A stretch of 64,000 bases of DNA from a virus, in the IMG/VR virus record IMGVR_UViG_3300032242_000738, positions 1 to 64,000 of that record; one strand, written 5' to 3'. Position 1 is the stretch's first letter; the number at the start of each line of letters is the position of its first letter. The notes under the pieces were generated by a model. The model did not search any database and was not told the DNA's origin. It saw only the letters and a list, made by a program, of their open reading frames with translations. The translations under genes were made by a program, and so were the position numbers. Positions 7,643-55,411 of this stretch are shown one piece after another.

Positions 7643-9086
7643 AATAATCGTCAAAGACGAAGTAAATGTAAAAATTGAGGGACTTGAACTATCAGAACGT
7701 AAAGCTCTAATGAAAATGTTTGAGTACGAAATACCCGGTGCACGTTATCTACCTGCAGTACGTTTAGGTAGATGGAATGGTAAGGTTAGTTACTTCAGTC
7801 TAGCCGGTAGTACGTACATCAATCTACTTCCTGAAATACTTCCTTACCTAGATAATGCAGGATATGATATTGAACTAGATGATTTACGTGATTACACTAC
7901 AACCTTTACTTTTGACAAAGTGTCCGAGAATACATTTATACATAAGAACTGGCCTAAAGGTCATCCTAAAGAAGGTACCCCAGTAGAATTACGTGATTAT
8001 CAAATTGAAATCGTAAACAACTTCTTAGAAAACCCACAAGCATTACAAGAAATCGCTACTGGTGCAGGTAAAACACTAATGACTGCCGCACTTAGCCATA
8101 GTGTTGAGAAGTATGGACGTAGTATTGTTATTGTCCCAAACAAAAGTCTGGTAACACAAACAGAAGCAGATTACATTAATCTTGGATTAGATGTTGGTGT
8201 ATACTTTGGTGATCGTAAAGAATACAATAAAACACATACCATCTGTACTTGGCAAAGTCTTAACAATATGCTTAAGAAAACTAAGTCAGGTGAAGCAGAA
8301 GTAGAGATTGGTGACTTCATTGAGGGTGTAGTTTGTGTAATGGTTGATGAAGTACATATGGCAAAAGCCGATGCACTAAAAACACTACTTACTAGTGTAT
8401 TCAGTAAAGTGCCCATTCGTTGGGGATTGACAGGAACTATCCCTAAAGCTAAGTTTGAATCACAAAGTATCTTTGTAAGTTTGGGTAATGTTATTGGTAA
8501 ACTAAGTGCAAGTGAATTGCAGGATCAGGGTGTATTAGCACGTTGTCATGTTAACATTATACAGTTACAAGATGGTAAAGAATTTACTAACTACCAAAGC
8601 GAACTAAAACATTTACTAGAAGATAGTGAACGATTGGATAAGATTGCCAGTTTAATCAGTGGTATTAATGATACAGGTAACACATTGATATTAGTTGATA
8701 GGGTCAATGCAGGTAAAGAGATTGTTAACAGATTACCCGGTAGTGTATTTGTTAGCGGTGCTACTAATATGAATGAAAGGAAAGAAGAATATGATGAAGT
8801 TGCTACAAGCACTAACAAGATTATCGTGGCTACATATGGTGTGGCTGCAGTTGGCATTAATATCCCTAGAATTTTTAATTTGGTGCTCATTGAGCCTGGT
8901 AAATCGTTTGTGCGAGTTATCCAGTCTATTGGTAGGGGCATCCGAAAAGCTGAGGATAAAGATCATGTCCAAATATACGACATAACTAGTAGTTGTAAGT
9001 TTGCCAAACGTCATTTAACCCAACGTAAAGCTTTTTATAAAGAGGCTAATTACCCTTTTGACGTAGAAAAGTTGACTTATAGATAA
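7629..9086 (+). CDS. uvsW: UvsW-like DNA helicase
   Basis: 485 residues (T4 UvsW about 500). The N-terminal ~110 residues carry the UvsW-type domain (PGARYLPAVRLGRWNGKV). Then come the Q-like motif LRDYQ, Walker A ATGAGKT (143-149), the DEVH box near 239, GLTGT motif III and QSIGRGIRK motif VI, all intact for an SF2 helicase. UvsW unwinds D-loops and R-loops, regresses forks and helps switch from origin to recombination-dependent replication. Confidence 0.92.
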   Translation: MKQCKIIVKDEVNVKIEGLELSERKALMKMFEYEIPGARYLPAVRLGRWNGKVSYFSLAGSTYINLLPEILPYLDNAGYDIELDDLRDYTTTFTFDKVSENTFIHKNWPKGHPKEGTPVELRDYQIEIVNNFLENPQALQEIATGAGKTLMTAALSHSVEKYGRSIVIVPNKSLVTQTEADYINLGLDVGVYFGDRKEYNKTHTICTWQSLNNMLKKTKSGEAEVEIGDFIEGVVCVMVDEVHMAKADALKTLLTSVFSKVPIRWGLTGTIPKAKFESQSIFVSLGNVIGKLSASELQDQGVLARCHVNIIQLQDGKEFTNYQSELKHLLEDSERLDKIASLISGINDTGNTLILVDRVNAGKEIVNRLPGSVFVSGATNMNERKEEYDEVATSTNKIIVATYGVAAVGINIPRIFNLVLIEPGKSFVRVIQSIGRGIRKAEDKDHVQIYDITSSCKFAKRHLTQRKAFYKEANYPFDVEKLTYR

Positions 9087-9100
9087 GAAAGTGTTATAAT
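9072..9100 (+). promoter_or_regulatory. Sigma70-like promoter inside the uvsW end, leaderless
   Basis: TTGACT at 9072-9077, 17-base spacer, TATAAT at 9095-9100. The ATG of the next gene is at 9107, six bases downstream, at the expected transcription start. Confidence 0.75.
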
Positions 9101-9607: not shown

Positions 9608-10197
9608 TGGCAACTAAAAAGACTACTCCAATTGATGAGAAATTTGTAGCGCAAGACTTTGACTTGTTTGATGCACTTACTGCTATGGACAAGAAAGACT
9701 ATGGTTATTATGATAGGTTAAGTGAAGAACAACAAAAGAAGTTTGTACCCTACATGATGACACATTGGATGAGTGCTATTAAGGGCGATGGAGCTGTTCA
9801 AGATTATTATTTGCGTAGTGTAGACTATCATGCCAATAAACATTTGTTTAATGAATATGTACAGAAACATCCCAAATTGCAATGGTATATGTTATGTGCA
9901 AGTAGTCCGGGACTAGGCAAACAATTTCATCAATGGATCCCGCATTTAGGTAGCAAAATAACATCATTAAAAGAACCTGCTAAAACAAAAGAAATAAAAG
10001 AATATTATACTAAGATTTATCCTAAGGTAGATAGTGATGATATTGATGAGATAGCAAAGGCTTTTGTACAAGAACACAAACGCAAATGTTATTTGGCAGA
10101 ACTATATCCCAATTGTAAACAATCAGACATTGAAATTCTCAGTCAATTAGTAACTGAAGAAGATATCAAGCAATATGAAAAAGACCGAGGAAATTGA
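9607..10197 (+). CDS. 62: Clamp loader small subunit gp62-like
   Basis: 196 residues (T4 gp62 is 187). It opens with FDLFDALTAMDKKDY and SEEQQKKFVPYMMTHWMSAI, and has YVQKHPKLQWYMLCASSPGLGKQF followed by a helical C-terminus ending in an acidic/basic helix, the layout of gp62 in T4-type aquatic phages. gp62 with four gp44 subunits loads the gp45 sliding clamp. gp44 is at 62343. No P-loop is present, as expected for gp62. Similarity is by pattern, so moderate confidence. Confidence 0.62.
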   Translation: MATKKTTPIDEKFVAQDFDLFDALTAMDKKDYGYYDRLSEEQQKKFVPYMMTHWMSAIKGDGAVQDYYLRSVDYHANKHLFNEYVQKHPKLQWYMLCASSPGLGKQFHQWIPHLGSKITSLKEPAKTKEIKEYYTKIYPKVDSDDIDEIAKAFVQEHKRKCYLAELYPNCKQSDIEILSQLVTEEDIKQYEKDRGN

Positions 10198-10873
10198 TAA
10201 CAAACAGTGTTGCGAGTTTTGTAAAGCAGTGTTCCAACGTGAAAGTACAATACTTAAACATATATGTGAACCCAAACGTAGATGGTTAGAGCGTGACCGT
10301 CAGGGTAATCGTGTGGGTTTCCAAGCTTGGTTACAGTTCTATAAGAAGAATACTGCAGGTACAAAGAATCGCACATATGAAGAATTTATCAAGAATCCCT
10401 ATTATCTTGCCTTCATTAAGTTTGGTAACTATTGTGTAGATATCAAGTGTATCAACGTAAGTAGATTTAGTGATTGGTTATTAAAGAATAGTATACGTAT
10501 TGATAATTGGCGACAAGATAGTAACTATACAAGGTTCTTATGTGAATATTTGCGTACTGAAGATCCATTAGATGCAATACATCGTAGTATAGAAACTACC
10601 ATAGAAAAAGCAGAAGCTGAACATATTCAAAGTAGAGATTACTTACGTTATGGTAATGTAAACAACATATGTTATGAGATTGCCAGAGGAAGAATCAGTC
10701 CATGGTTATTGTATCAGAGTACTAGTGGTGTAGAGTTCTTAAGTACATTACGTGATGACCAGCAACGAATGATTATGGATTATATTAATCCAGAGCAATG
10801 GGCATTGAAGTTTAATCGTGATAGTGATAGTGTGAAACAAGTTAAGGAATTATTGAATGCCGGCGGGTACTAA
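10175..10873 (+). CDS. Zinc-finger-containing hypothetical protein
   Basis: 232 residues. The N-terminus has CEFCKAVFQRESTILKHIC (about residues 13-31), a C2HC zinc-finger-like motif. The rest is helical and rich in Arg, Trp and Tyr, and not recognised. The first 23 bases overlap the gp62-like gene and the last 17 overlap the first gene of the small-gene array, so it belongs to one long translationally coupled run. A nucleic-acid-binding role is suggested by the finger and basic character. Confidence 0.65.
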   Translation: MKKTEEIDNKQCCEFCKAVFQRESTILKHICEPKRRWLERDRQGNRVGFQAWLQFYKKNTAGTKNRTYEEFIKNPYYLAFIKFGNYCVDIKCINVSRFSDWLLKNSIRIDNWRQDSNYTRFLCEYLRTEDPLDAIHRSIETTIEKAEAEHIQSRDYLRYGNVNNICYEIARGRISPWLLYQSTSGVEFLSTLRDDQQRMIMDYINPEQWALKFNRDSDSVKQVKELLNAGGY

Positions 10874-11054
10874 AGTTCGTATAGGATGGCAAATAGATTT
10901 CCAATATAATAATTGGAATGAAATTTGTGTTTGGGCCATAGAAAAGTTTGGCTTACCGGGTGATAAATTTGAGACACATGCAACAGAAGAATACATGGAT
11001 TTTTATTTTATAAATGAACGTGATGCTATCTTATTTGAGTTGACTTGGGGATGA
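10857..11054 (+). CDS. LRW-array protein A
   Basis: 65 residues. It starts inside the end of the zinc-finger gene. The body has WNEICVWAIEKFGLPG and the terminus reads FYFINERDAILFELTWG, the array signature of an aromatic/acidic segment (F.NE.DA..F.L.W) ending one residue after the Trp. The tail overlaps the next ATG (ATGA). Function unknown; see array finding. Confidence 0.7.
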   Translation: MPAGTKVRIGWQIDFQYNNWNEICVWAIEKFGLPGDKFETHATEEYMDFYFINERDAILFELTWG

Positions 11055-11266
11055 AACAAGTAACACTGTACATTGATGCTAAAAGAACTATGGAAATAGG
11101 TAATGAGTTACGTACTAGTGGTTGGATCCAAGGTGTTGATTTTGATTATGCTTATTTTAGAACTGAACATGACAATTTCAGCTACGATCCCGTAGTAAGA
11201 CGACATGCAGTATTTACATTTTACAATGATAGTAATGCTAGTTATTTCATGTTGAGGTATGGATGA
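11051..11266 (+). CDS. LRW-array protein B
   Basis: 71 residues, start at the ATGA overlap (a TTG at 11045 is in frame but unnecessary). It reads MEIGNELRTSGW at the front and FTFYNDSNASYFMLRYG at the end, a divergent copy of the signature with Tyr for Trp. It stops by a four-base ATGA overlap with gene C. Confidence 0.7.
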   Translation: MKQVTLYIDAKRTMEIGNELRTSGWIQGVDFDYAYFRTEHDNFSYDPVVRRHAVFTFYNDSNASYFMLRYG

Positions 11267-11475
11267 GCGATTTACCTTATACTATAATTACTAAGAAACT
11301 TGACCATGATGCAGAAGAATGGTGTAGGGATAACATAGGAGAACGATGGTTTGCTGTGGGTAGAAAGACAGGTAATTGGACATGTTTTTGGGCAGGAAGA
11401 GATGATCCTAAAAGTTATCGTTGGCACTTTAGAAATGAAAAAGATGCTTTTTTCTTTGCGTTGAGATGGCAATGA
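11263..11475 (+). CDS. LRW-array protein C
   Basis: 70 residues. It shows the fullest form of the shared layout: EEWCRDNIGERWFAVG in the middle, then WHFRNEKDAFFFALRWQ at the end. Start and stop are both ATGA overlaps with its neighbours, which ties its translation to theirs. Confidence 0.72.
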   Translation: MSDLPYTIITKKLDHDAEEWCRDNIGERWFAVGRKTGNWTCFWAGRDDPKSYRWHFRNEKDAFFFALRWQ

Positions 11476-11720
11476 TACTTAAAATTGAAGATGGTACAGT
11501 GTACGGTGAACACTATTATTGTGTTTCACTCTCACGTGGTTCAAACGAAGTAATACTCTGGGATGATATTTCAAAATGGTGTGTAGATACATTTGGTCCT
11601 AGTGGTACGGAAGATAGACCCGGAGCATGGACTCCGTATGAACGTTGGTATATAAATAATGCCAGGTATTGGTTTAAAGATAAAAAAGATTTAGAGTGGT
11701 TCAGTCTACGATGGCAGTAA
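11472..11720 (+). CDS. LRW-array protein D
   Basis: 82 residues from the ATG in the ATGA overlap; an ATG at 11466 would add two residues. Contains SKWCVDTFGPSG and ends RYWFKDKKDLEWFSLRWQ. The ATG of the next gene is formed within the codons for the terminal LRWQ. Confidence 0.7.
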   Translation: MILKIEDGTVYGEHYYCVSLSRGSNEVILWDDISKWCVDTFGPSGTEDRPGAWTPYERWYINNARYWFKDKKDLEWFSLRWQ

Positions 11721-11953
11721 TATTTCAACATTACGACAATAATGTTGGTTGGGAGAACACTAAGCCGGGCTGGCATGAATGTTCAGTCAGAGCGGAACAC
11801 ATTGACAAATACGTTGAAATACTAGATTGGGTAGAACAGCACGTAGGTAAATACACAAGACATTGCAGATGGTGTGTGACTGATACCAGTATAGCAAGTT
11901 TTAAATTTAGATATGAACGTGATTATATCATGTTTACATTGAGGTGGTCATGA
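11711..11953 (+). CDS. LRW-array protein E
   Basis: 80 residues from the ATG at 11711, which overlaps gene D by ten bases. Has LDWVEQHVGKYTRHCRWCV in the middle and ends FKFRYERDYIMFTLRWS. The aspartate and flanking aromatics of the signature are kept (ERDYIMF). Confidence 0.68.
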   Translation: MAVIFQHYDNNVGWENTKPGWHECSVRAEHIDKYVEILDWVEQHVGKYTRHCRWCVTDTSIASFKFRYERDYIMFTLRWS

Positions 11954-12177
11954 CCTATCCTGTATTCAATACAGAATTAAACTTACCGGCATACACCTCA
12001 CATAATTGGACTGAAGTTCAACAATGGTGTAATGATAATATAGGTCCATGGAATGAATCTTGGTATAAATTGGGTATGGATCCAGCTGTCGGAATATTTT
12101 CTGATGTTAAATACCGTGACACATATCTTTTTAAGAACGAACATGATAGACTATTGTTTATATTGAGGTGGAGTTGA
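11950..12177 (+). CDS. LRW-array protein F
   Basis: 75 residues, starting by ATGA overlap (an in-frame GTG at 11944 is possible). Contains QQWCNDNIGPWNESWYKLG, very like protein C (WCRDNIGERW), and ends YLFKNEHDRLLFILRWS. It ends TGATG with gene G. Confidence 0.7.
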   Translation: MTYPVFNTELNLPAYTSHNWTEVQQWCNDNIGPWNESWYKLGMDPAVGIFSDVKYRDTYLFKNEHDRLLFILRWS

Positions 12178-12443
12178 TGGCGTCAATACCCCATATACAA
12201 GACTATGATGACGATGATCCAGAAATAGAAAGACGAAAGAATCGTTGGAACTATTGGGAAGCATTGAAGAAAGTTCGCAAAGAATATATGCAACAGAACA
12301 GTGAGTTTGATGCATATGACTTTGAAGATTATCTTGTAGGACAATATGGCATAAAGATGAACATAGTTAATGGTAACATCACTGATGGTTATGAGATAGT
12401 TAATGAAAAGAAATACTTAATATTTTTACTGAAATTCCAATGA
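12177..12443 (+). CDS. LRW-array protein G (divergent)
   Basis: 88 residues from the ATG overlapping the stop of F. It has an acidic, charged N-terminus (YDDDDPEIERRKNRW) and the eroded signature YEIVNEKKYLIFLLKFQ, with Lys-Phe replacing Arg-Trp. Part of the same coupled array; ends by ATGA overlap. Confidence 0.65.
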   Translation: MASIPHIQDYDDDDPEIERRKNRWNYWEALKKVRKEYMQQNSEFDAYDFEDYLVGQYGIKMNIVNGNITDGYEIVNEKKYLIFLLKFQ

Positions 12444-12796
12444 GCAACTTATTTCCCATAACCTCTTTACAAAACGATAAATTTCTAGTATCATGGCCTA
12501 AATGGGAAAACATTAAAAGATTTGATACAAAGAAAAAACTATTAGATGTGTTATTTGACGATATCGGTAGTAGTGAAGTTGGTATCGCAATATTAGCCGG
12601 AATACTAAGCGGTGGTGAAGTAGATGTTATGTGGATAAAATCAAATACTTGGTCACAGGATACATACGGAGAATATGCTAGATACCTAGAAGATATGTAT
12701 GATATTAAAGGTGTAGCATTTAATAGTTTAGATGAAGCAACAAGATTTCAAGATTACTTAGAAAAGAAATATATTTGGAAAACATTACAGGGATAA
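12440..12796 (+). CDS. Last gene of the small-gene array, partly related
   Basis: 118 residues, starting by ATGA overlap. The N-terminal 90 residues differ from the other array proteins (a hydrophobic stretch EVGIAILAGILSGGEVDV). The end, VAFNSLDEATRFQDYLEKKY, keeps an aromatic-acidic-aromatic spacing like the array signature but without LRW. Probably a fused or strongly diverged member; not recognised otherwise. Confidence 0.65.
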   Translation: MSNLFPITSLQNDKFLVSWPKWENIKRFDTKKKLLDVLFDDIGSSEVGIAILAGILSGGEVDVMWIKSNTWSQDTYGEYARYLEDMYDIKGVAFNSLDEATRFQDYLEKKYIWKTLQG

Positions 12797-12797
12797 T

Positions 12798-13361
12798 ATG
12801 GCAAACCACATTATGATAGATATTGAAAGTTTGGACACAACACCCAATTGTGTTATACTAACCATTGGTGCAGTACGTTTTGATCCTAAAGGTAGTGGTG
12901 TAGTTGAACGATTGGAACTACGTCCTACAGTTGAGGATCAAACAGAGATTTACAATAGAAGTATCAATGAAGATACATTACGTTGGTGGAGTGAGCAGAG
13001 CCCTGAAGCACTTGAAGAAGCATTGGGAGACAATGGACGCATGCCATTAAAAGACTGCATGGAGATACTTTATAAGTTTTGTTGGAACCGTGATGCTGTG
13101 TGGAGTAATGGTGCAAGCTTTGATGTGGTTGTGATGGAAAATGCATTCAGACAAACAAGTGATAAGCCTAATCCAATACCCTGGCCTTTTTGGACAATTA
13201 GAGATACAAGAACTATTTACGACATTACAGGCGTAAAACTTAAAGATGGTGGGCATAGTACAAGTCATAAAGCAGTTGAAGATGCCGAAAGACAAGCAAT
13301 TGTTGTGCAAAAAGCATATACTAAACTTATTAAAGCAGAATTGGTAGCACCAGCAAAATGA
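12798..13361 (+). CDS. dexA: DexA-like 3'-5' exonuclease (DnaQ fold)
   Basis: 187 residues. DEDD-type motifs are visible: MIDIESLDT (Exo I), LRWWSEQSPEA as in T4 DexA (STIEWWKNQSPEA), NGASFDVVVMENAF (Exo II) and HKAVEDAERQA (Exo III, HxAxxD). DexA degrades ssDNA or RNA 3' to 5'. It follows the small-gene array with a one-base gap after its stop and overlaps the DnaE-like gene by four bases, so it may act with it; polymerase palm and proofreading exonuclease being adjacent is suggestive. Confidence 0.85.
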   Translation: MANHIMIDIESLDTTPNCVILTIGAVRFDPKGSGVVERLELRPTVEDQTEIYNRSINEDTLRWWSEQSPEALEEALGDNGRMPLKDCMEILYKFCWNRDAVWSNGASFDVVVMENAFRQTSDKPNPIPWPFWTIRDTRTIYDITGVKLKDGGHSTSHKAVEDAERQAIVVQKAYTKLIKAELVAPAK

Positions 13362-22715: not shown

Positions 22716-24542
22716 ATGGCCATTATACAGATATCTAAAATCCAACAACGTTCAGGTAACCTTGTAGACCTGCCACAATTAGACCAAGCTCAATTGGGCT
22801 GGGCCAATGATGCTAAACGTCTTTTTATAGGAACTACTAGTCCTAATCCAAATGAAAATGTTGAAGTATTAACAGCATATTCAACTATTACCTTTAGTCA
22901 AATTTCAGGTGGTGAGGGTAATTTAAACATCTCTAATTCTCAGAATGGGCAAATATTAACTTATGTTAGTAGTACCGATACCTGGGAAAACTATACAGGA
23001 AATTCTGTCCAACTAGGTGGACATAAACTTCAGCTTGGTAATGTAGCAAATATATCCATGACCGGTGGTGCCATTGGATATGTATTAGAAACAGACGGAT
23101 TGGGTAATCTAAGTTGGACATCTAAATCAACAATTACTGCATATATCAGTGCAGTATCAAAAGCTAATCCTGGGGTAGTAACTACCACAGTTCCTAATTT
23201 CTTTACAGCCGGTGCATTAGTAACCATTACCGATGTTGTTGGTATGACTCAGCTTAATGGTAACAGTTATTATGCGAAGATATTAACATCTAATACGTTC
23301 TCATTATATTCTGATTCTGGGTTAACTACGCCGGTTGATACAAGTGGCTATACTACATATACTAGTGGTGGTAGAGTAATTTCTTCAGTAGGAGGATCTG
23401 GATCAAGTGCGGCAGCTGGTAGTAATACCACAGTACAATTTAATGATAACAATGTTCTTCAAGGTAGTGCAGGATTTACCTTTAATAAACTATCAGGAGT
23501 TTTAACAGCACCAAATCTTGCAGGTGATGGCGGTAGATTATCAAATATTGCTGGTGCTAATATTACAGGTTCAATACCTCTTGCTACATATGCAACAACT
23601 GCAAATAGTGTAGCTGGTGCTAATGTTTCAGGTGCAGTAGCATACGCAACAACAGCTAATAATGTAGCCGGTGCTAATGTGTCAGGTCAAGTCAGTTATG
23701 CGGCTGTAGCCAATAGTGTAGCAGGAGCCAATGTTTCAGGTACAGTAGGTCTTGCTACATATGCAACAACTGCAAATAGTGTTGCTGGCGCTAATATAAG
23801 CGGCGCTGTAGGTCTTGCTACATATGCGACAACAGCTAATAGTGTAGCCGGTGCTAATGTTTCTGGTGCAGTCAGTTATGCAACAACAGCTAATAGTGTA
23901 GCAGGTGCTAATGTTTCTGGTGCAGTTAGTTATGCAACAACCGCTAATAGTGTAGCAGGTGCGAATGTAAGTGGTACTGTAAGTAGTGCAACTACAGCAG
24001 GTACTGTAACAACCGCGGCACAGCCAAATATCACAAGTGTTGGTACATTAACTTCATTAAATGTAAGTGGTCAAATAACGAATAATAATATTACAACGGG
24101 TGCTAGTTCAACACCGGGCAATCTTACTGGTGCTTGGACATTAAGTAGCGGTTCAACACTACAAGCCACATATGCTGACTTAGCAGAATATTATGAATCT
24201 GATAATATCTATGAACCAGGTACTGTATTAGCATTTGGTGGTGATAAAGAAGTTACCATAGCAGAAGATGCCACTACAAAAGTTGCAGGTATTGTTTCTA
24301 CCAATCCAGCATATGTAATGAATAGTGCATGTGAAGGTGAACATATTGTAGCATTAGCATTACAAGGTCGTGTTCCGTGTAAAGTACGTGGAAATATTAA
24401 AAAGGGTGATATGTTAATAAGTGCAGGATATGGCTTTGCTCGTCCAGCATCATTCCCTGTATTGGGTACAGTCATCGGTAAATCATTAGAAAACTTTGAT
24501 GGTGTAGAAGGTATCATTGAAGTAGCAGTCGGCAGACTTTAA
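22716..24542 (+). CDS. Repeat-containing tail fibre protein
   Basis: 608 residues. The N-terminal ~45 residues (IQISKIQQRSGNLVDLPQLDQAQLGWAND) look like a fibre attachment segment. A module near 170-215 has LNGNSYYAKILTSNTFSLY. Residues ~270-430 contain about eight copies of a ~17-residue repeat (YATTANSVAGANVSGAV) likely forming a trimeric beta fibre. The C-terminal domain (~487-608, ADLAEYYESD, VAGIVSTNPAYVMN) resembles peptidase-G2-like autocleavage/chaperone modules. Repeats and C-terminus are shared with the 2639-residue protein at 47492. Confidence 0.78.
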   Translation: MAIIQISKIQQRSGNLVDLPQLDQAQLGWANDAKRLFIGTTSPNPNENVEVLTAYSTITFSQISGGEGNLNISNSQNGQILTYVSSTDTWENYTGNSVQLGGHKLQLGNVANISMTGGAIGYVLETDGLGNLSWTSKSTITAYISAVSKANPGVVTTTVPNFFTAGALVTITDVVGMTQLNGNSYYAKILTSNTFSLYSDSGLTTPVDTSGYTTYTSGGRVISSVGGSGSSAAAGSNTTVQFNDNNVLQGSAGFTFNKLSGVLTAPNLAGDGGRLSNIAGANITGSIPLATYATTANSVAGANVSGAVAYATTANNVAGANVSGQVSYAAVANSVAGANVSGTVGLATYATTANSVAGANISGAVGLATYATTANSVAGANVSGAVSYATTANSVAGANVSGAVSYATTANSVAGANVSGTVSSATTAGTVTTAAQPNITSVGTLTSLNVSGQITNNNITTGASSTPGNLTGAWTLSSGSTLQATYADLAEYYESDNIYEPGTVLAFGGDKEVTIAEDATTKVAGIVSTNPAYVMNSACEGEHIVALALQGRVPCKVRGNIKKGDMLISAGYGFARPASFPVLGTVIGKSLENFDGVEGIIEVAVGRL

Positions 24543-32595: not shown

Positions 32596-33564
32596 ATGTC
32601 AATAACAATTACAGGTGGAATAACTTTTGGTAGTGTAGGTGGTGTAAGTATTATTGCACCGCCCGGTGGCACTCAAAAGGCTATATTTGGATATGGTGCA
32701 AATTCTGGTGCCATAGCTGTTAAAATAACTAACTTAGTAAGTAATACCGGTGTTGTTGCTACGGATACCGCAGGCGCAGGTACAGCTAGGCTTTCTCTAT
32801 CAGCCTCTATATACGGCGGTGATAAAGCTGTATTTGGGTATGGTGCGGATACCGGCGGAGGTGCATTATCAATGACCAATCTAGTAAGTAATACAGGTGT
32901 GGTAGCGACAGATACAACCGGTGTTGGTATTACTAGGTTTTCATTAGCCGCGGCAGGCTATGGCACAGATAAAGCTATATTTGGATATGGCGCAAATTCT
33001 GGTGCTACGTCAATATCAATAACCAACTTAGTATCAAATGCCGGTGTAGTAGCTACAGATACAACAGGTGTTGGTACTGCTAGACGATATCTTGCTGCCG
33101 CCGGCTATGGTACAGATAAAGCTATATTTGGATATGGTGAAGATAGCGGTGGCGGTACATTGTCAATGACTAACTTAGTAAATAATACCGGTGTTGTTGC
33201 TACAAATACCACAGGTGTCGGCACTGATAGAAGTCACCTTGCAGCCACAGGATATGGTAGTTCAGGACAGGCTATATTTGGATATGGATCAAATTCCGGC
33301 GGTATTGGAGTAAAAATAACCAACCTAATAAGTAATACCGGTGTTGTTGCTACTGATACTACAGGAGTAGGCTCTGCTAGGCTTTCTCTATCAGCCTCTA
33401 TATACGGCGGTGATAAAGCTGTATTTGGGTATGGTGCGGATACCGGCGGAGGTGCATTATCAATGACCAATCTAGTAAGTAATACAGGAGTAGTTGCTAC
33501 AGATACAGCTGGTGTAGGTACTGCTAGATATGGATTAGCAGCCGCAGGGTATTCATTAACCTAA
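32596..33564 (+). CDS. Six-repeat propeller-like virion protein
   Basis: 322 residues. After ~25 residues there are six repeats of about 49 residues, each with KAIFGYG.(N/D)SG, ITNLVSN.GVVATDT and GTAR..LAAAGYG. This spacing fits blades of a beta-propeller (kelch-like), a fold used in phage tip proteins. Two blade segments are identical at DNA level over 113 bases. Late promoter upstream. Function in the particle, perhaps receptor binding, is inferred. Confidence 0.65.
   Translation: MSITITGGITFGSVGGVSIIAPPGGTQKAIFGYGANSGAIAVKITNLVSNTGVVATDTAGAGTARLSLSASIYGGDKAVFGYGADTGGGALSMTNLVSNTGVVATDTTGVGITRFSLAAAGYGTDKAIFGYGANSGATSISITNLVSNAGVVATDTTGVGTARRYLAAAGYGTDKAIFGYGEDSGGGTLSMTNLVNNTGVVATNTTGVGTDRSHLAATGYGSSGQAIFGYGSNSGGIGVKITNLISNTGVVATDTTGVGSARLSLSASIYGGDKAVFGYGADTGGGALSMTNLVSNTGVVATDTAGVGTARYGLAAAGYSLT
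32785..32897 (+). repeat. 113-bp perfect direct repeat, copy 1
   Basis: Identical to 33376-33488, four blades (591 bases) downstream in the same gene. Confidence 0.92.
33376..33488 (+). repeat. 113-bp perfect direct repeat, copy 2
   Basis: Identical to 32785-32897; the other blades have diverged in third positions, so this pair is recent or kept alike by conversion. Confidence 0.92.
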
Positions 33565-43533: not shown

Positions 43534-44505
43534 ATGTCAGTAACATTTAGTGGAGCATTTACATTTGGTGGTGGTGGATTTACTGCTACTTTGGCACCAC
43601 CCTCAACACCCACAGCAGGTTGGTTTAGTACAGGTGCATATCTATCAACCGTAGATAGAATGATATTTGCAACTGACACCGCAGCAGTATCTGTTCGTGG
43701 ACCAATTAGTGTAGTTAAAAATGGCGCAGCCGCATTTGGCTCAAATACTTATGGATATAATACTGCAGGATACAATAGCCCAGCAGGTGTAATGTCATCA
43801 GTTGATAGAATAACATATGCGACAGACACAGCAACATCAAGTGTACGTGGTCCATTAGTAACAGCTAGATGGAGACATGGCACAACAAGTGACACTACAA
43901 CATATGGTTGGGCTGCTACAGGAGATAGTGTAAATTCATCAGTGGATCGTGTTACTTTTGCAGCCGACACTGCAACTGCTAGTGTACGCGGTCCATTAAG
44001 TTTGGCTAGATATGGATTAGGATCAACCGGGACAAATAGTTATGGATGGTTTATAGGTGGGCGATATGATAATCCAACTGCTGTAGTTGTTTCTACCATT
44101 GACCGCATTACATATGCATCTGACACTGCAACTGCTAGTGTACGTGGACCATTAAACTCAGTTAGATATTATGGTGTGGGAGCAGTCACAGACTATAATA
44201 CGTATGGCTGGTACGGTGGAGGTAACCCACTAGGCCCAGTCACGTCTGCAATTAGTCGTATTACTTATGCAAATGATACAGCAACTACTACTGTTAGAGG
44301 TTCATTATCAAACACCTACCTACAAGGCGGTGCAACCGGAGCGAGCGATACAACATATGGTTGGTGGGGAGGTGGTAATGCAGGAGGATCACCGACGTCT
44401 ATTATTACCCGTATTACATTTGCAACTGATACTGATATTACAACTAATAGAACCGTGTTGTCATCAACTAGATATCAAATTGCAACAACTTCAGGTATCC
44501 AATAA
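43534..44505 (+). CDS. Second six-repeat propeller-like virion protein
   Basis: 323 residues. Six repeats of ~47 residues with VDRITYATDTATSSVRGPL and TYGW..G, typical of propeller-like (kelch-type) repeats in phage virion proteins. The repeat differs from that of the 32596 protein but copy number, length and late promoter are alike. Probably a tail or head tip protein; the ligand is unknown. Confidence 0.65.
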   Translation: MSVTFSGAFTFGGGGFTATLAPPSTPTAGWFSTGAYLSTVDRMIFATDTAAVSVRGPISVVKNGAAAFGSNTYGYNTAGYNSPAGVMSSVDRITYATDTATSSVRGPLVTARWRHGTTSDTTTYGWAATGDSVNSSVDRVTFAADTATASVRGPLSLARYGLGSTGTNSYGWFIGGRYDNPTAVVVSTIDRITYASDTATASVRGPLNSVRYYGVGAVTDYNTYGWYGGGNPLGPVTSAISRITYANDTATTTVRGSLSNTYLQGGATGASDTTYGWWGGGNAGGSPTSIITRITFATDTDITTNRTVLSSTRYQIATTSGIQ

Positions 44506-47491: not shown

Positions 47492-50400
47492 ATGAGCCAA
47501 CAAAATATAGATTTCGGTGCTTTTCCGGATGATCCTCAAGCAGATGCTATAAGAATAGCGTTTCAAAAAGTACAAAATAACTTTGACCAGTTATTTTCAA
47601 CTGCATCCGTAGGCGTAGTTACATCAGTAAATCAAAATGCCGGTGCCGGCATACAAGTTAATACACCTACCGGTAACGTAATTGTTAGTGCTAATATTGC
47701 TTGTGTTCAAGTTGCTACTAGTTCATTAAGTATTGGTCAGGGTGGTAATGGTGGAACTTCTGCAACTATTACACAATCTAGTCAAACACTGGTAGTTGAT
47801 ATTAATCCAGCAAACGTATTTTCAAACAATTTTGCGGCTGTGGGTGGCGGATTAGCCAATATAACAGGTACACTAACTGCATCCGCTTCAGCACAACCTA
47901 ATATTACTACTGTAGGAACATTGGGTAATTTAGTAGTAACCGGTGATACTACTTCAGGTAATGTATATGCTAATTCAGGAACAGTAGTAGCAAGTATACT
48001 AACTGGAACACTAACCACAAACGCACAACCAAATATTACTAGTGTTGGTACATTAAGTAGTTTAACAGTTACAGGTACTATTACTAGTGGTAATGCTACT
48101 TTAGGTAACACAGCTAATGCTAATTATTTTGTTGGTGATGGTAGTCAATTAACTAATATTCGTGCTGATGGTGGTACATCAACTATATTATCTAACGGTA
48201 CTAGTAATGTAAACATTCCAGTAGTTAGTAGCAATGTTACGATAGGTGTTAGTGGTACTGCTAACACAGTTGTTTTTACTACAACAGGTGTTAATGTAAG
48301 TGGATACTTAAATGCAAATAGATTAATATCTACTGTTGCCACAGGTACAGCACCGTTAACAGTAACATCTACTACTCAAGTTGCAAACTTAAATGCAGCT
48401 ACTGCAGGTCTTGCTACATACGCCACTACAGCAAATAGTGTAGCAGGTGCAAATGTTTCAGGAGCAGTACCTTATGCAACTACAGCAAATAGTGTTGCCG
48501 GTGCTAACGTAAGTGGTGCTGTTGGTAGTGCAACTAATGCATCTGCAGTATTAAATAGCACACAAACGACAGGAACATATTATCCTGCATTCGTTTCATC
48601 AACAGTAACCGGTAATTATGCTTTAGCATCTAATACAGCATTTAGTGCTAACTTAGCTAATGGATCATTAACAGCAACAACTTTCATTGGTAATGTTCAG
48701 GGTAATGTAAATGGTAATATTTCTGGTAACATTAATGTAAGTGGTAGCAATACACAGGTGTTGTTCAATGATTCAGGTAATGCTAACGCTACTGCAGGTT
48801 TTACATTTAACAAATCATCAAATCTAGTAACAATGGCTGGTAACTTAATTACAGCTAATGCTAATTTGGGTAATGCCGCATCAGCTAATTATTTTATTGG
48901 AAGCGGTAATAATTTAAGTAATATTCAAGGTGCTAACGTTTCTGGTGCTGTACCTTATGCAACAACAGCTAATAATGTAGCTGGTGCTAATGTAAGTGGT
49001 ATTGTAGCTAATGCCACATATGCGACAAATGCCGGATCAGCAACGACAGCTGGTACAGTAACAACAGCCGCACAACCAAATATCACAAGTGTTGGTACAC
49101 TATCTTCATTAATTGTTAGTGGCAATATTAATGCCGGCAATCTTAGTGCAAATAACTTTACAGTTAATAATGCTAATATATCAGGTCAATATATAACAAC
49201 ACTAACTACAGGTACTGCACCATTAGTAGTATATTCAACTACACAAGTGGCTAACTTAAATGCAGCTACAGCAGGTCTTGCTACATATGCTACAACCGCA
49301 AACGCAGTAGCTGGCGCAAATGTTTCAGGTGCAGTAGCTTATGCAACCACAGCTAATAGTGTGGCTGGTGCTAATGTCAGTGGTGCTGTTGCTAGTGCTA
49401 CTAATGCATCTGCAGTATTGCAAAACACATCAACTGCTACTACAGCTTATCCTACATTCACTACATCATCTGCTAATGGTAACTCATCAATAGTAATTAA
49501 TACTAGTATTAATGCTAATTTATCTAATGGTGCATTAACTGCAACAACATTTATAGGTAACTTCCAAGGTAATATTTCTGGTAATATTAGTGTAGGTGGC
49601 AGTAATACACAAGTATTGTTTAATGATTCAGGTAATGCTAATGCTACTGCAGGATTTACATTTAATAAATCATCAAACCTTGTTACATTATCAGGTAATT
49701 TAATAGCAGCAAATGCTAATTTAGGTAATGCCGCAACAGCTAATTACTTTATTGGTAACTTCTATGGTTTGGCTAATAACTCAACAACAGCAGGTACAGT
49801 AACCTCTAACGCACAACCAAATATCACTAGTTTGGGTACATTAAGTAGTTTATCAGTAACTGGCAATATATCATCAGGTAATGCTAGTTTAGGAAATAGT
49901 GTATCAGCTAATTACTTTGTTGGTTCAGGTAATAACTTAAGCAATATACAGGCTGCTAATATTACAGGAGCAATTCCATATGCTAATATCGCAAATAATG
50001 TAGCCGGCGCAAATGTCTCTGGACAAGTAGGTAATAGTTTAATTGCAAGTACAGTTTATACTAATGCACAGCCAAACATAACTAGTGTAGGTACACTAAC
50101 TGGTTTAACTGTATCTGGGTCAACGAATTTGGGTAATGTAGGCAACGTTACAATTACTGGAGGTAGTGCAAACTATTTCTTAATGACAAATGGTTCTGGT
50201 GCATTAACTTGGACTAATGCCGCATTATCGCCTGTACCAGGTTCTAATACACAAGTTATCTTTAATGACGGTAGTGCGTACGGAGCAAATAGTAATTTAA
50301 CATTTAATAAATCAACAGGAGCATTAAGTGCTACATTACTAACCGGTACATTAACAACAGCGGCTCAACCAAATGTTACAAGTGTTGGTACATTAACTTC

Positions 50401-53400
50401 ATTGATTGTTAGTGGTAATATCAATGCAGGTAACGTTACTGGTGGTAATGTAGTTAGCGCAAATTATTTAACTGGTAACTTAACAACAGCGGCTCAACCT
50501 AATATAACAAGTGTTGGTACATTAACAAGTTTAGGTGTTAATGGTACAGTGACCGCAGTGGCATTTACTGCTAATACAGGTGTGTTCACTGGTAATGGTG
50601 CTGGATTAACTAACTTAAATGGTGCAAATGTATCTGGTTCTATTGCTAATGCAACATATGCACTAAGTGCAAATACAGCAAACACTGCAATTACTGTAAC
50701 AGGTAATAGTCAACCAAATATAACTAGTGTTGGTACGTTAACTTCATTGATTGTTAGTGGTAATATTAATGCCGGCAATGTCAGTGGTGGTAATGCAGTA
50801 TCAGCTAATTATCTTATAGGTAACTTATATGGTACAGCTAATTTAGCTACATATGCAACAACTGCTAATAGTGTTGCCGGTGCTAATGTCTCTGGTCAAG
50901 TGGCTAACAGTTTGGTTGCAGGCACAGTATATACAAATAGTCAGCCAAATATTACAAGTGTTGGCACATTAACTAGCTTAACAGTATCTGGTACAACTAA
51001 TTTAGGTGCCGTAGGTAATGTTACAATTACTGGTGGTACTAGTGGTTATTATTTACAGACAAATGGATCAGGCACACTAACTTGGGCAGCTATCCCAGTT
51101 GGTTCAGGTATAAGTAATGGTAATAGTAATGTAAATATTCCTAGTAGTAATGGTAATGTTAATATCAGTGCTGTGGGTAACGCCAATGTACTAATAGTTA
51201 CAGGCACAGGGATTAATGTAGCTGGCACACTAAATGCTACAGGCAATGCAAACGTAGGTAATATAGGTGCTACTAATGGCGTATTTACTAATGTTAGTGG
51301 TAACGGATCAGCATTAAGTTCTATTACAGGTGCTAACGTAACTGGTACAGTCGCCAACGCAACAAATGCAACTAGTGCAACAAATGCGGCTGCGTTATTA
51401 CAAAACACATCAAGTGCTACAACAGTTTATCCAACATTCACTACTAGTAGTGCTAATGGAAACTCATCAGCAGTAATTAATACTAGCATCAGTGCTAATT
51501 TAGCCAATGGATCATTAACTGCAACAACATTTATAGGTAATGTTTCAGGTAACATCTCTGGAAATATTGCAGTAAGTGGTAGTAATACACAAGTGTTGTT
51601 TAATGATTCTGGCAACGCTAATGCTACAGCAGGATTTACATTTAACAAATCATCAAACTTAGTAACAATGACAGGCAATTTAGTAACTGCTAATGCTAAT
51701 TTAGGTAATGCCGCAACAGCTAATTACTTCATTGGTAACTTCTATGGAACTGCTAACTTAGCTACATATGCAACTACAGCTAATAGTGTCGCTGGTGCTA
51801 ATGTCTCTGGTCAAGTGTCTAATAGTTTAGTTGCAGGTACTGTATATACGGCAGCTCAGCCAAATATTACGTCAGTTGGTACACTAAGTAGTTTAACTGT
51901 AACAGCTAACACAACTAGTGGTAACTTAGTAACCGGTGGAGTAATAACAGTTAGTGGTACAGGCGTAAGTTCTATTAACGGTAATTTGAACATGAACAGC
52001 AAATATGTTGTTTCTGTGTCTGATCCAGTTAATGCACAAGATGTTGCAACAAAGAACTATGTAGATGGTTTGGTAGCCACTGGATTAGCATATCATACAG
52101 CAGTAGTAGCAGCCACAACTACTACATTAGCAATTACTACAGGTGGTACAGTAACATATAACAATGGTGCATCAGGTGTTGGTGCAAATCTTGTAACAAC
52201 AGGTTCATTTAATCTAATTGATACTGCAAACGTACAGACGGTAGGTACTCGTATCTTAGTTAAAGATGAAGCCAACGGAGCTTGGAATGGTGTTTATACA
52301 TGGGCTAATGCTACTACTATTGTACGTTCAACTGATACCAATAGTTATGGTCCGGGTACAACTCAATTAAGCGAAAACGATTATTTCTTTGTAAGTAGTG
52401 GTAGTGTTAATAAAGGATCTGCTTGGGTTGTAACTACTGCAGGTACAATTACTTTTGGTACAACTAATATTATTTTTAGTCAGTTTAGTAGCTCACAGAC
52501 TTATAATGCTGGTACTGGTTTAACACTAGCTAGTACAACATTTAGTATTAGCAATACGGCAGTAACGGCAGGTTCATATGGCAATGGTGATCGTGTTTCA
52601 ACATTTACAGTAAATAATCAAGGTCAATTAACTGCCGCAAGTAATACTGCTATAACTGCTAATGCGGCTAACTTGACAGGTACTACTCTTGCTTCAAGTG
52701 TTGTAACATCAAGTTTAACTACAGTAGGAAATGTAACAGCAGGTATCTGGAATAACAACATTGGTTTAAGTGCAACATTTGCCGCAGGACTGTCAGGTGC
52801 AAACTTAGCAAGCATCACTGGTGCTAACGTAACTGGACAAGTTGGTAACAGCTTAGTTGCAGGTACAGTATACACAAATGCACAACCTAATATTACAAGT
52901 GTTGGTACACTAACAAGTTTAGGTGTTAATGGTACTGTAACTGCTGTAGCATTTACTGCTAATACAGGAATATTTACAGGTAATGGTTCTGGATTAACTA
53001 ACATTAATGGTGCTAACGTAACTGGCTCTGTATCAACTACTGTAAGTGCAACAAATGCATCTGCGTTATTACAAAATACATCAAGTGCTACAACGGTATA
53101 TCCAACATTTACTACTAGTAGTGCAAATGGAAATTCACAAGCAGTATTCAATACTTCTATCAGTTCTAATTTAGCTAATGCATCTATTACTGCTACCACG
53201 TTTGTTGGTGCATTAAGTGGTACTGCTAGTTTAGCTACATATGCAACAACTGCTAATAGTGTTGCCGGCGCTAACGTAAGCGGTGCAGTAGCATACGCAA
53301 CCACAGCTAATAGTGTAGCAGGTGCTAATGTCTCCGGGGCTGTCACATATGCAACAACTGCTAATAGCGTAGCAGGTGCTAATGTAAGCGGTACCGTAGC

Positions 53401-55411
53401 TAATGCAACATATGCAGTAACAGCAGGAACAGCATATTCAGTAAGTGCAGGAAATATTTCTGGTACAGTCAATCTTGCCAATTATGCAACCACAGCTAAC
53501 AGTGTTGCTGGTGCTAATGTAAGTGGTGCGGTATCATACGCAACAACAGCCAACAGTGTCGCTGGTGCTAACGTAAGTGGTGCTGTAGCGTATGCAACCA
53601 CTGCTAATAGTGTAGCCGGTGCTAATGTTTCTGGTGCTGTAGCAAGTGCAACTAGTGCAACAAATGCAGCCGCATTATTACAAAATACATCTAGCGCAAC
53701 GACTGTATATCCAACATTCACTACTAGTAGTGCAAATGGAAATTCACAAGCAGTATTCAATACTTCTATCAGTTCTAATTTAGCCAATGCATCTATTACT
53801 GCTACAACATTTGTAGGTGCATTGAGTGGTACGGCAAGTTTAGCGACATATGCAACAACTGCTAATAGTGTAGCTGGTGCTAATGTATCCGGAGCAGTAA
53901 GCTATGCAACAACAGCCAATAGTGTAGCCGGTGCTAATGTAAGTGGTACAGTAGCCAATGCAACATATGCTACTAGTGCAGGCAGTGCAAGTTCAGCAAG
54001 TAGCGCAACTACTGCAGGAAGTGTAACTAACGCAGTAACATTCAACAATGGTGGAACAGGCGACGTATCAGGAACTACATACAACGGTGGTGCTGCAAGA
54101 ACTGTTTCATATAATACAGTTGGTGCTCCAAGTACTACAGGTACGAATGCCAGTGGTACATGGAATATTAATGTTACAGGTAGTGCAGGTAGTGCAAGCA
54201 CAGCCGGTAGTGCTACTACAGCCGGTAGTGCTACTACAGCAGGAAGCGTAACTAATTCTGTAACATTCAATAGTGGTGGTGCAGGAGACGCATCAGGTAC
54301 TACATTCAATGGCGGCGCCGCAAGAACAGTTTCATATAATACAGTAGGTGCGCCTAGTACTACTGGCACAAATGCTAGTGGTACATGGAGTATTAATGTT
54401 ACCGGTAGTGCAGGTAGTGCAGGTAGCGCATCCAGTGCAACCACTGCAGGTAGTGTAACAAACTCAGTTACATTTAGTACTTCAGGAGGTGCTGCAGCCG
54501 GAACGACATTTAACGGAGGTGCTGCTAGAACTGTTGATTATAGTACAGTAGGTGCGCCTAGTACTACTGGTACAAATGCTAGTGGTACATGGAGTATTAA
54601 TGTTACCGGTAGTGCAGGTAGTGCAAGTACAGCAGGTACTGTAACAACTGCGGCACAACCAAACATTACTAGCGTTGGTACATTGAGTAGCTTATCTGTA
54701 TCTGGTAACATTAGTGGTGGTAACGTTGGGGGTATTATTAGACCTACTGCAGGTAGTGGTACAGCTGGTATTATATTCCCTGCAGACCCCGGAGGCGGAT
54801 CCGGCGATTTGGCAACAATCAAATATTATGCAATAACAGGTGAAACAACTGTATTAGAATTAACTGTAACTAATGATGCTGATGATACTATTAAGTTAAA
54901 TGCCAGTGGCGGAACAACTATTACAAACACATTAACTACTACATCTATAAGTGCAGGATCTAGTGGCACAGCCGGTACTATTACTGGCAACTGGTCACTA
55001 AGTGGTGGTTCACGCTTAAATGCAACATATGCTGACTTAGCAGAATATTACAAATCTGATACTGAACTTGTTGCGGGTGACGTAGTTGTACTAGGTGGTG
55101 ATTTTGATGTAACACTAACAGATGAATCACACGACCACAGAGTTGCAGGTATTGTTAGTACTGATCCAGCATATTTAATGAATCGCAAAGAAGATGATAC
55201 AGGATATGTTGCTGTTGCACTAACAGGACGAGTACCATGCAAAGTAAATGGACCAGTAAGAAAAGGTGATTTATTAGTAAGCTCATCACAAAAAGGTGTA
55301 GCACAAAAATTAGATAATACAAAATGGGTACCAGGTTGTGTTATAGGTAAAGCTATGGAAAACGTTGATGAAGGGCTACATATCATTGAAGTAGCAGTCG
55401 GTCGTTTCTAA
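47492..55411 (+). CDS. Giant repeat tail fibre, 2639 residues
   Basis: The N-terminal ~40 residues (IDFGAFPDDPQADAIRIAFQKVQNNFDQLF) form an attachment segment seen also at 58463. Most of the protein is built from recurring units: QPNITSVGTLTSL.VSG, NTQVLFNDSGNANATAGFTF, LLQNTSSATTVYPTFTTSSANGN and YATTANSVAGANVSGAV. Around 1495-1680 is a distinct module (SKYVVSVSDPVNAQDVATKNYVDGL, RILVKDEANGAWNGVYTW) common in tail fibres. The last ~125 residues (ADLAEYYKSD...VAVGRF) match the C-terminus of the 22716 protein. Likely a long trimeric host-recognition fibre. Confidence 0.85.
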   Translation: MSQQNIDFGAFPDDPQADAIRIAFQKVQNNFDQLFSTASVGVVTSVNQNAGAGIQVNTPTGNVIVSANIACVQVATSSLSIGQGGNGGTSATITQSSQTLVVDINPANVFSNNFAAVGGGLANITGTLTASASAQPNITTVGTLGNLVVTGDTTSGNVYANSGTVVASILTGTLTTNAQPNITSVGTLSSLTVTGTITSGNATLGNTANANYFVGDGSQLTNIRADGGTSTILSNGTSNVNIPVVSSNVTIGVSGTANTVVFTTTGVNVSGYLNANRLISTVATGTAPLTVTSTTQVANLNAATAGLATYATTANSVAGANVSGAVPYATTANSVAGANVSGAVGSATNASAVLNSTQTTGTYYPAFVSSTVTGNYALASNTAFSANLANGSLTATTFIGNVQGNVNGNISGNINVSGSNTQVLFNDSGNANATAGFTFNKSSNLVTMAGNLITANANLGNAASANYFIGSGNNLSNIQGANVSGAVPYATTANNVAGANVSGIVANATYATNAGSATTAGTVTTAAQPNITSVGTLSSLIVSGNINAGNLSANNFTVNNANISGQYITTLTTGTAPLVVYSTTQVANLNAATAGLATYATTANAVAGANVSGAVAYATTANSVAGANVSGAVASATNASAVLQNTSTATTAYPTFTTSSANGNSSIVINTSINANLSNGALTATTFIGNFQGNISGNISVGGSNTQVLFNDSGNANATAGFTFNKSSNLVTLSGNLIAANANLGNAATANYFIGNFYGLANNSTTAGTVTSNAQPNITSLGTLSSLSVTGNISSGNASLGNSVSANYFVGSGNNLSNIQAANITGAIPYANIANNVAGANVSGQVGNSLIASTVYTNAQPNITSVGTLTGLTVSGSTNLGNVGNVTITGGSANYFLMTNGSGALTWTNAALSPVPGSNTQVIFNDGSAYGANSNLTFNKSTGALSATLLTGTLTTAAQPNVTSVGTLTSLIVSGNINAGNVTGGNVVSANYLTGNLTTAAQPNITSVGTLTSLGVNGTVTAVAFTANTGVFTGNGAGLTNLNGANVSGSIANATYALSANTANTAITVTGNSQPNITSVGTLTSLIVSGNINAGNVSGGNAVSANYLIGNLYGTANLATYATTANSVAGANVSGQVANSLVAGTVYTNSQPNITSVGTLTSLTVSGTTNLGAVGNVTITGGTSGYYLQTNGSGTLTWAAIPVGSGISNGNSNVNIPSSNGNVNISAVGNANVLIVTGTGINVAGTLNATGNANVGNIGATNGVFTNVSGNGSALSSITGANVTGTVANATNATSATNAAALLQNTSSATTVYPTFTTSSANGNSSAVINTSISANLANGSLTATTFIGNVSGNISGNIAVSGSNTQVLFNDSGNANATAGFTFNKSSNLVTMTGNLVTANANLGNAATANYFIGNFYGTANLATYATTANSVAGANVSGQVSNSLVAGTVYTAAQPNITSVGTLSSLTVTANTTSGNLVTGGVITVSGTGVSSINGNLNMNSKYVVSVSDPVNAQDVATKNYVDGLVATGLAYHTAVVAATTTTLAITTGGTVTYNNGASGVGANLVTTGSFNLIDTANVQTVGTRILVKDEANGAWNGVYTWANATTIVRSTDTNSYGPGTTQLSENDYFFVSSGSVNKGSAWVVTTAGTITFGTTNIIFSQFSSSQTYNAGTGLTLASTTFSISNTAVTAGSYGNGDRVSTFTVNNQGQLTAASNTAITANAANLTGTTLASSVVTSSLTTVGNVTAGIWNNNIGLSATFAAGLSGANLASITGANVTGQVGNSLVAGTVYTNAQPNITSVGTLTSLGVNGTVTAVAFTANTGIFTGNGSGLTNINGANVTGSVSTTVSATNASALLQNTSSATTVYPTFTTSSANGNSQAVFNTSISSNLANASITATTFVGALSGTASLATYATTANSVAGANVSGAVAYATTANSVAGANVSGAVTYATTANSVAGANVSGTVANATYAVTAGTAYSVSAGNISGTVNLANYATTANSVAGANVSGAVSYATTANSVAGANVSGAVAYATTANSVAGANVSGAVASATSATNAAALLQNTSSATTVYPTFTTSSANGNSQAVFNTSISSNLANASITATTFVGALSGTASLATYATTANSVAGANVSGAVSYATTANSVAGANVSGTVANATYATSAGSASSASSATTAGSVTNAVTFNNGGTGDVSGTTYNGGAARTVSYNTVGAPSTTGTNASGTWNINVTGSAGSASTAGSATTAGSATTAGSVTNSVTFNSGGAGDASGTTFNGGAARTVSYNTVGAPSTTGTNASGTWSINVTGSAGSAGSASSATTAGSVTNSVTFSTSGGAAAGTTFNGGAARTVDYSTVGAPSTTGTNASGTWSINVTGSAGSASTAGTVTTAAQPNITSVGTLSSLSVSGNISGGNVGGIIRPTAGSGTAGIIFPADPGGGSGDLATIKYYAITGETTVLELTVTNDADDTIKLNASGGTTITNTLTTTSISAGSSGTAGTITGNWSLSGGSRLNATYADLAEYYKSDTELVAGDVVVLGGDFDVTLTDESHDHRVAGIVSTDPAYLMNRKEDDTGYVAVALTGRVPCKVNGPVRKGDLLVSSSQKGVAQKLDNTKWVPGCVIGKAMENVDEGLHIIEVAVGRF

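Follow-up and report, generated by a model that had tools for sequence, protein, structure and literature searches.

Rows of overlapping paralogous small genes at a phage replication locus, joined through C-terminal codons that may double as translation signals

Known cassette systems and the array

The promoter-early stem-loop (PeSL) cassettes of T4-type phages, attributed to Arbiol (2010) and Comeau (2014), are reportedly units proposed to undergo modular shuffling by recombination. The PeSL studies are cited in PMC4503421. Like the locus described here, such regions reportedly show repeated short DNA elements between the small ORFs of plastic regions, but the PeSLs are intergenic promoter-terminator elements and their ORFs are unrelated. 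In the present array, by contrast, the ORFs are paralogues of one another, and what repeats is a coding gene end together with a ribosome site or start. Borders of the PeSL type, with an intergenic promoter and a stem-loop, are not found at its ORFs: the genes overlap and leave no intergenic DNA.

A second point of comparison is termination-reinitiation at overlaps of the ATGA or TGATG type, which couples the translation of neighbouring genes (PMC6728339, PMC10666635). The overlap types are the same here and coupling is expected; the difference is that the ribosome-binding site is written in a conserved protein motif, which recurs from one paralogue of the array to the next. There are precedents for tandem paralogues, for translational coupling and, in T4-type phages, for shuffling elements. 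As far as could be checked, the use of a family-wide C-terminal motif as both ribosome site and gene border has not been described, and our search of the open-access literature found no description of such an array.

The window, the whole stretch of DNA that was analysed, takes up the first 64 kb of a virus record 84 kb long. It carries T4-like replication genes (UvsX, a UvsW-type helicase, primase, DnaB helicase and clamp loader) and a tail sheath gene. Eight consecutive small ORFs, A to H, sit between two conserved flanks on the + strand: X (10175–10873), which matches the phrog_11058 family and has no assigned function, and Z (12798–13361), an exonuclease by family match (PF16473, phrog_255). 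On one side are the UvsW-like helicase and X; the other side has the exonuclease, a polymerase-like protein, primase and DnaB helicase. The array is housed in a replication-gene operon. A preliminary description of this DNA had reported about eight tiny overlapping genes, and both the ORFs and the kinds of overlap are as it stated. The joints are ATGA at A/B, B/C, E/F and G/H, TGATG at F/G, and 10-base overlaps at C/D (where ATGA is an alternative) and D/E.

Elsewhere in the window, two long ORFs (22716–24542 and 47492–55411; 608 and 2639 aa) repeat the motif YATTANSVAGANVSGAV... many times over and finish with similar C-terminal domains; they probably encode fibre-like virion proteins. Two further ORFs (32596–33564 and 43534–44505) consist of degenerate repeats of ~40–55 residues (FGYGADTGG... 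and DTATASVRGPL...) and are probably virion or adhesin-like proteins.

A family of small jumbo-phage proteins

Genes A to G (10857–12443, + strand) are tandem paralogues from one uncharacterised family of small (about 65–90 aa) jumbo-phage proteins. Profile homology identifies A (10857–11054, tail LTWG), C (11263–11475, LRWQ), D (11466–11720, LRWQ), E (11711–11953, LRWS) and F (11950–12177, LRWS; missing in most relatives by locus comparison) as clear members. When ortholog profiles from relatives were compared with hhalign, these five matched one another at 94–98% probability, over 45–56 columns for most pairs and over the 20-residue tail only for A and C. Two members are divergent: B (11051–11266, LRYG), whose homology lies mainly in the last ~21 residues, reached 19–88% against the family over about 21 tail columns, and G (12177–12443, LKFQ) gave marginal hhalign values, with 69% against the A3 profile.

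An iterated HMM converged at 395 members in the X/Z anchor loci, with 0 reversed-sequence decoys and all members on the anchors' coding strand. After more loci were added, the family comprised about 893 non-redundant members from about 280 loci, with 0 decoys even at E 0.1. The iterated profile takes in A, C, D, E and F clearly; its values for B (3e-4 to 1.6e-3) and for G (6e-4 to 0.012) are marginal. Among the 264 window ORFs of at least 40 aa, a true [LIVM][RK][WFY] C-terminus (0–3 residues from the end) occurs in six, B to G, all in the array; two further regex matches were non-homologous. The reversed decoys and this window-wide scan rule out chance Trp/Phe content as the source of the LRW motif, and the pairwise profile comparison finds homology among A, C, D, E and F, with B joined mainly by its tail and G marginally.

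Gene H (12440–12796, + strand) was rejected as a family member, with no match to A–G in profile comparison; searches of PHROGs and Pfam gave it no family match either. It is nevertheless kept at the array's end, forming the right end in about 100 loci, and is single-copy in the four records checked. Of the array of about eight genes in the preliminary description, A to G form the family and H does not belong to it. Of the two motifs it named, A, C, D, E and F show the middle WC..N.G segment clearly and B and G do not, and the C-terminal LRW-type motif is borne out across the family, with the divergence in B and G that had been described and with LTWG at the end of A. Its picture of a shared, putatively binding tail behind a variable front is right only in that the C-terminus is common. 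The common part, however, is not the tail alone but a domain of roughly 50 residues that ends in LRW, with the consensus WxEIxxWCxxNxG ... W ... FxFxxxxDAxxFxLRWx. In a 96-member alignment, W38, W61, F70, D75, F79, L81, R82 and W83 (gene D numbering) are near-invariant.

No family model in Pfam, PHROGs or NCBIfam scored above cut-off, with only isolated single-member matches (E 0.005–0.1), and the PADLOC anti-phage defence profiles yielded just two weak single-member matches. Members D and G were modelled. The AlphaFold2 model of D, built from 96 sequences, has a beta-beta-alpha-beta-beta-alpha order (pLDDT 83, pTM 0.73), and only the C-terminal half of the G model (pLDDT 73.5) shares the helix-strand-strand-helix order with it. 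The family may share a compact domain, a helix, two strands and a further helix, whose last helix is predicted to terminate in F-x-L-R-W-x. A search of the PDB with the D model gave no significant fold match (best E 0.41). Among BFVD viral structures, significant matches (E 2.9e-6 to 2.6e-4, 23–34% identity) were confined to uncharacterised proteins of uncultured Caudovirales phages (A0A6J5KVW6, A0A6J5L6V8, A0A6J7WGK8 and A0A6J5T1G0), and their records describe neither a function nor an array.

The strand-helix topology of the model would allow the proteins to be small nucleic-acid or ribosome-binding modifiers, with a ferredoxin- or eIF1-type-like fold, that tune host translation or transcription. 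Foldseek points weakly in the same direction, with similarities to permutants of ribosomal protein S6 and to one chain, 83 residues long, of a translation initiation complex from an archaeon (5jb3_1, TM 0.50, E 1.8); all of these matches are non-significant (E above 0.4), and we regard such a role as highly unlikely.

Putative initiation signals within the gene ends

At the junctions, Leu-Arg-Trp is mostly written TTG AGG TGG, which makes a strong Shine-Dalgarno sequence for the gene that follows: when TTG-AGG-TGG is followed by xxA-TGA, GAGGTG, which is complementary to the 16S 3' end, stands about 5 nt before the ATGA start. In the window (all on the + strand), this arrangement is seen at the E/F junction (TTGAGGTGGTCATGA, 11939–11953), with the F start at ATGA, and at the F/G junction (TTGAGGTGGAGTTGATG, 12163–12179), with the G start at TGATG, while at the B/C junction (TTGAGGTATGGATGA, 11252–11266) the Leu-Arg codons give GAGG before the ATGA start of C. 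At the D/E junction (CTACGATGGCAGTAA, 11706–11720) the ATG of E lies inside the Arg-Trp codons, and at the C/D junction (TTGAGATGGCAATGA, 11461–11475) gene D starts either in this way or at ATGA. Start codons formed inside the LRW codons had been noticed before, and correctly so; that the same codons more often make a ribosome-binding site had been missed.

Across the family, 66% of unique L-[R/K]-W-x tails write Arg as AGG, a share that becomes 72% after dereplication by gene-pair cluster, compared with 8% in the bodies of the same genes (Fisher p ~1e-159), and the Leu codon before AGG is TTG in 84% against 19% in gene bodies. The Shine-Dalgarno energy before ATGA starts has a median of -10.3 kcal/mol, versus -4.05 when the same residues are recoded synonymously at the codon frequencies of these genes (n=322 dereplicated junctions, p ~1e-43), and 119 non-family ATGA junctions have a median of -3.5. 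A start at the stop codon is absent from 91 of 190 AGA, CGA or AAA tails but from only 25 of 359 xxG tails (p 5e-28), and with AGA, CGA or AAA the start is more often an ATG formed within the R/K-W codons. The LRW codons would therefore have two ways of serving the next gene: as TTG AGG TGG they would form a ribosome-binding site some 5 nt ahead of its ATGA or TGATG start, and with AGA or CGA for Arg they would supply the start itself (CG-ATG-G). An ATGA or TGATG overlap combined with a downstream initiation signal, the arrangement expected of translational coupling, occurs at the window joints and at the 322 dereplicated ATGA junctions, which on this basis are putatively coupled.

The extreme AGG and TTG bias and the very strong Shine-Dalgarno site could also be taken to mean that LRW is a ribosome site at the nucleotide level that merely happens to encode Leu-Arg-Trp, in proteins that are otherwise unrelated. 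This reading is scarcely credible and is largely refuted. The homology spans about 50 residues, including the near-invariant W38, W61, D75 and F79, and an RW tail is encoded at 0 of the 119 other ATGA junctions. In addition, the tail persists as LKW written with AAA (49 cases), as RW+1 in 24 of 37 dereplicated members without an overlapping downstream ORF of at least 50 aa, and with CGC/CGT in the cultured Sinorhizobium phage Phosso. Since the motif persists without a downstream gene, both the protein and the translation signal are selected. The codon choice differs: AGG is used in LRW in 8 of 21 members without such a downstream ORF and in 220 of 321 otherwise (p 0.007).

In our reading, LRW is ancestral as a protein motif, and its additional use as a translation signal arose later, within this lineage. 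The embedding of the ribosome site is lineage-specific, because the LRW-like tails of Phosso use other, varied codons (CGC/CGT for Arg) and lack the AGG-TGG ribosome-site bias.

Variation among relatives and possible role

The preliminary description had held the array to be the unusual part, unless close relatives proved to have it as standard. They do: the X–Z slot carries 2 to 21 family genes (median 4) in 83 distinct relatives, yet the array is a lineage trait and not an artefact. Gene order and content differ among these loci (ABEGH, ABDEGH, ABCDEGH), with rows of about 20 in L124 and L245, and contigs that lack the X/Z anchors, some of them 250–525 kb, yielded additional arrays when scanned for a degenerate tail pattern; this locus set is skewed towards LRW-bearing members, a skew from which the X/Z-anchored set is free. 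Larger genes (about 215–515 aa) are inserted in the array slot between X and Z in L105, L121, L046, L095 and L148. The 352 kb contig of L124 (G001) has two more members far from its main array (259344–259532 and 263851–264021), so that dispersed members occur too.

In cultured phages the family was reached only by profile search of selected records. A tblastn search of 50,697 phage records with C, a relative of D and the consensus gave no match. Phosso (PV764938.1), a jumbo phage, has 31 profile matches at E<=1 (best 1.3e-9), many of which end FKLxW or FKLxF. Phosso resembles the present lineage in having the same family by profile, with members that end in FKLRWS, FKLAWS, FKLTWS or the like and that often stand in rows of small genes which overlap; it differs in that its copies are spread over several genome places and its X–Z slot has only one weak member. 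Its matches lie in several clusters of overlapping small genes, at about 5–14 kb, 113–117 kb and 404–410 kb, and all are annotated hypothetical. Atu_ph07 has five profile matches and Pseudomonas phage Paride three; in Paride a polymerase-like gene directly follows X and the slot is without an array. In Erwinia phage Hallingskeid the single match was weak and interrupted by a stop (E 0.04), and a match in SCTP-2, a WC..FG-like stretch within a larger deaminase/MazG-like protein, was judged spurious. The same profile search found none in T4, T7, phiKZ, P-SSM2, HTVC008M, 121Q, Vibrio phage 2.275.O, CcrColossus, phiM12 and phage G. The single copies that the preliminary description mentioned for some phages have a weak counterpart in Paride and Atu_ph07, while in Phosso the members are many.

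Two loci comparisons locate the points at which genes were gained or lost. Gene C, present between B and D in L026, is missing in L008, where the B/D junction consists of the B tail of L026 continued by what comes after the C tail of L026, the two meeting within a 17-nt identical repeat, GTTGAGGTGGGGATGAA. Gene F, between E and G in the window, is missing in L026, where the sequence at the E/G junction begins as that of E and passes into that of F within GTTTAyATTGAGGTGG, a 15/16-nt junction repeat. More broadly, in-register runs of at least 9 nt are shared by 26% of adjacent tails versus 1% of non-family gene ends, although random family tail pairs already have 9-nt runs in 19%; runs of at least 12 nt occur in 10.5% of adjacent-gene tails and 4.5% of random family pairs. 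The downstream gene is a modest predictor of the upstream tail's last codon and stop (observed 0.648; permutation mean 0.615, maximum 0.655), only slightly above permutation, and we did not retain its control of these positions as a global rule. With two clean examples as local evidence, junction recombination is a plausible general route of turnover.

We therefore propose that the array is a translation-coupled cassette row of paralogues, in which each gene would hand translation on to whichever gene comes next. Recombination within a junction could then add, delete or reorder genes with reading frames and initiation intact, because junction DNA is similar between genes, and the breakpoints of array indels would fall inside TTGAGGTGG junctions. 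In such a model, junction recombination would drive gene turnover.

Large copy-number variation and shared junction repeats could also arise from selfish or near-neutral proliferation, in which the repeats ease duplication with little benefit to the phage. However, every gene from A to H is under purifying selection (median dN/dS 0.13–0.27 per gene), and core residues are invariant across deeply diverged members, which makes proliferation of this kind distinctly unlikely. The repeated tandem duplication suggested in the preliminary description has support: common descent by this route is backed by profile homology, by the arrays of 2–21 members and by the purifying selection.

As to what the products do, the position in the replication operon and one host-type promoter consensus suggest that the array is expressed early. 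The latter, at 9072–9100 on the + strand upstream of the array's small operon, is the best + strand sigma70-like match of the region (TTGACT-17-TATAAT, TG-extended) and is a consensus match only; promoter-like sites across the region show no excess over shuffles. The products may be early-expressed host-interaction proteins, serving host takeover or counter-defence and kept as a changing repertoire. Alternatively, the paralogues may be subunits of one heteromeric complex, such as a replication or recombination accessory, with coupling setting its stoichiometry. Replication and recombination genes adjoin the array on both sides, heteromeric complexes are over-represented among the overlapping gene pairs of bacteria (PMC10666635), and the strong junction Shine-Dalgarno sites would set expression, all of which suits a complex. 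Content, number and order nevertheless vary between close relatives, a poor fit to fixed stoichiometry, and members also occur at unrelated genomic places; we consider a complex unlikely. The variable copy number, the diverged but individually conserved paralogues and the absence from most cultured phages would seem to fit a host-interaction repertoire better than a fixed complex.

In sum, we hold the account as a whole, a translation-coupled cassette row with junction recombination and an early host-interaction repertoire, to be somewhat better than an even proposition. More tentatively, and with rather less than even confidence, the conserved C-terminus may act as both ribosome or start signal and recombination site, through which the phage could grow, shrink and reshuffle a small host-interaction repertoire without disturbing its expression.

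Large as the family is, the libraries searched contain no curated model of it, so that annotation leaves these genes hypothetical. Phosso, with some 20–30 members, opens the question of function to experiment in a cultured phage. The family also gives a clear case in which selection acts on the protein and on a translation signal within one brief segment of coding DNA, with up to about 20 such segments following one another, and it suggests a concrete and testable route by which phages may expand and shuffle their small-gene repertoires.
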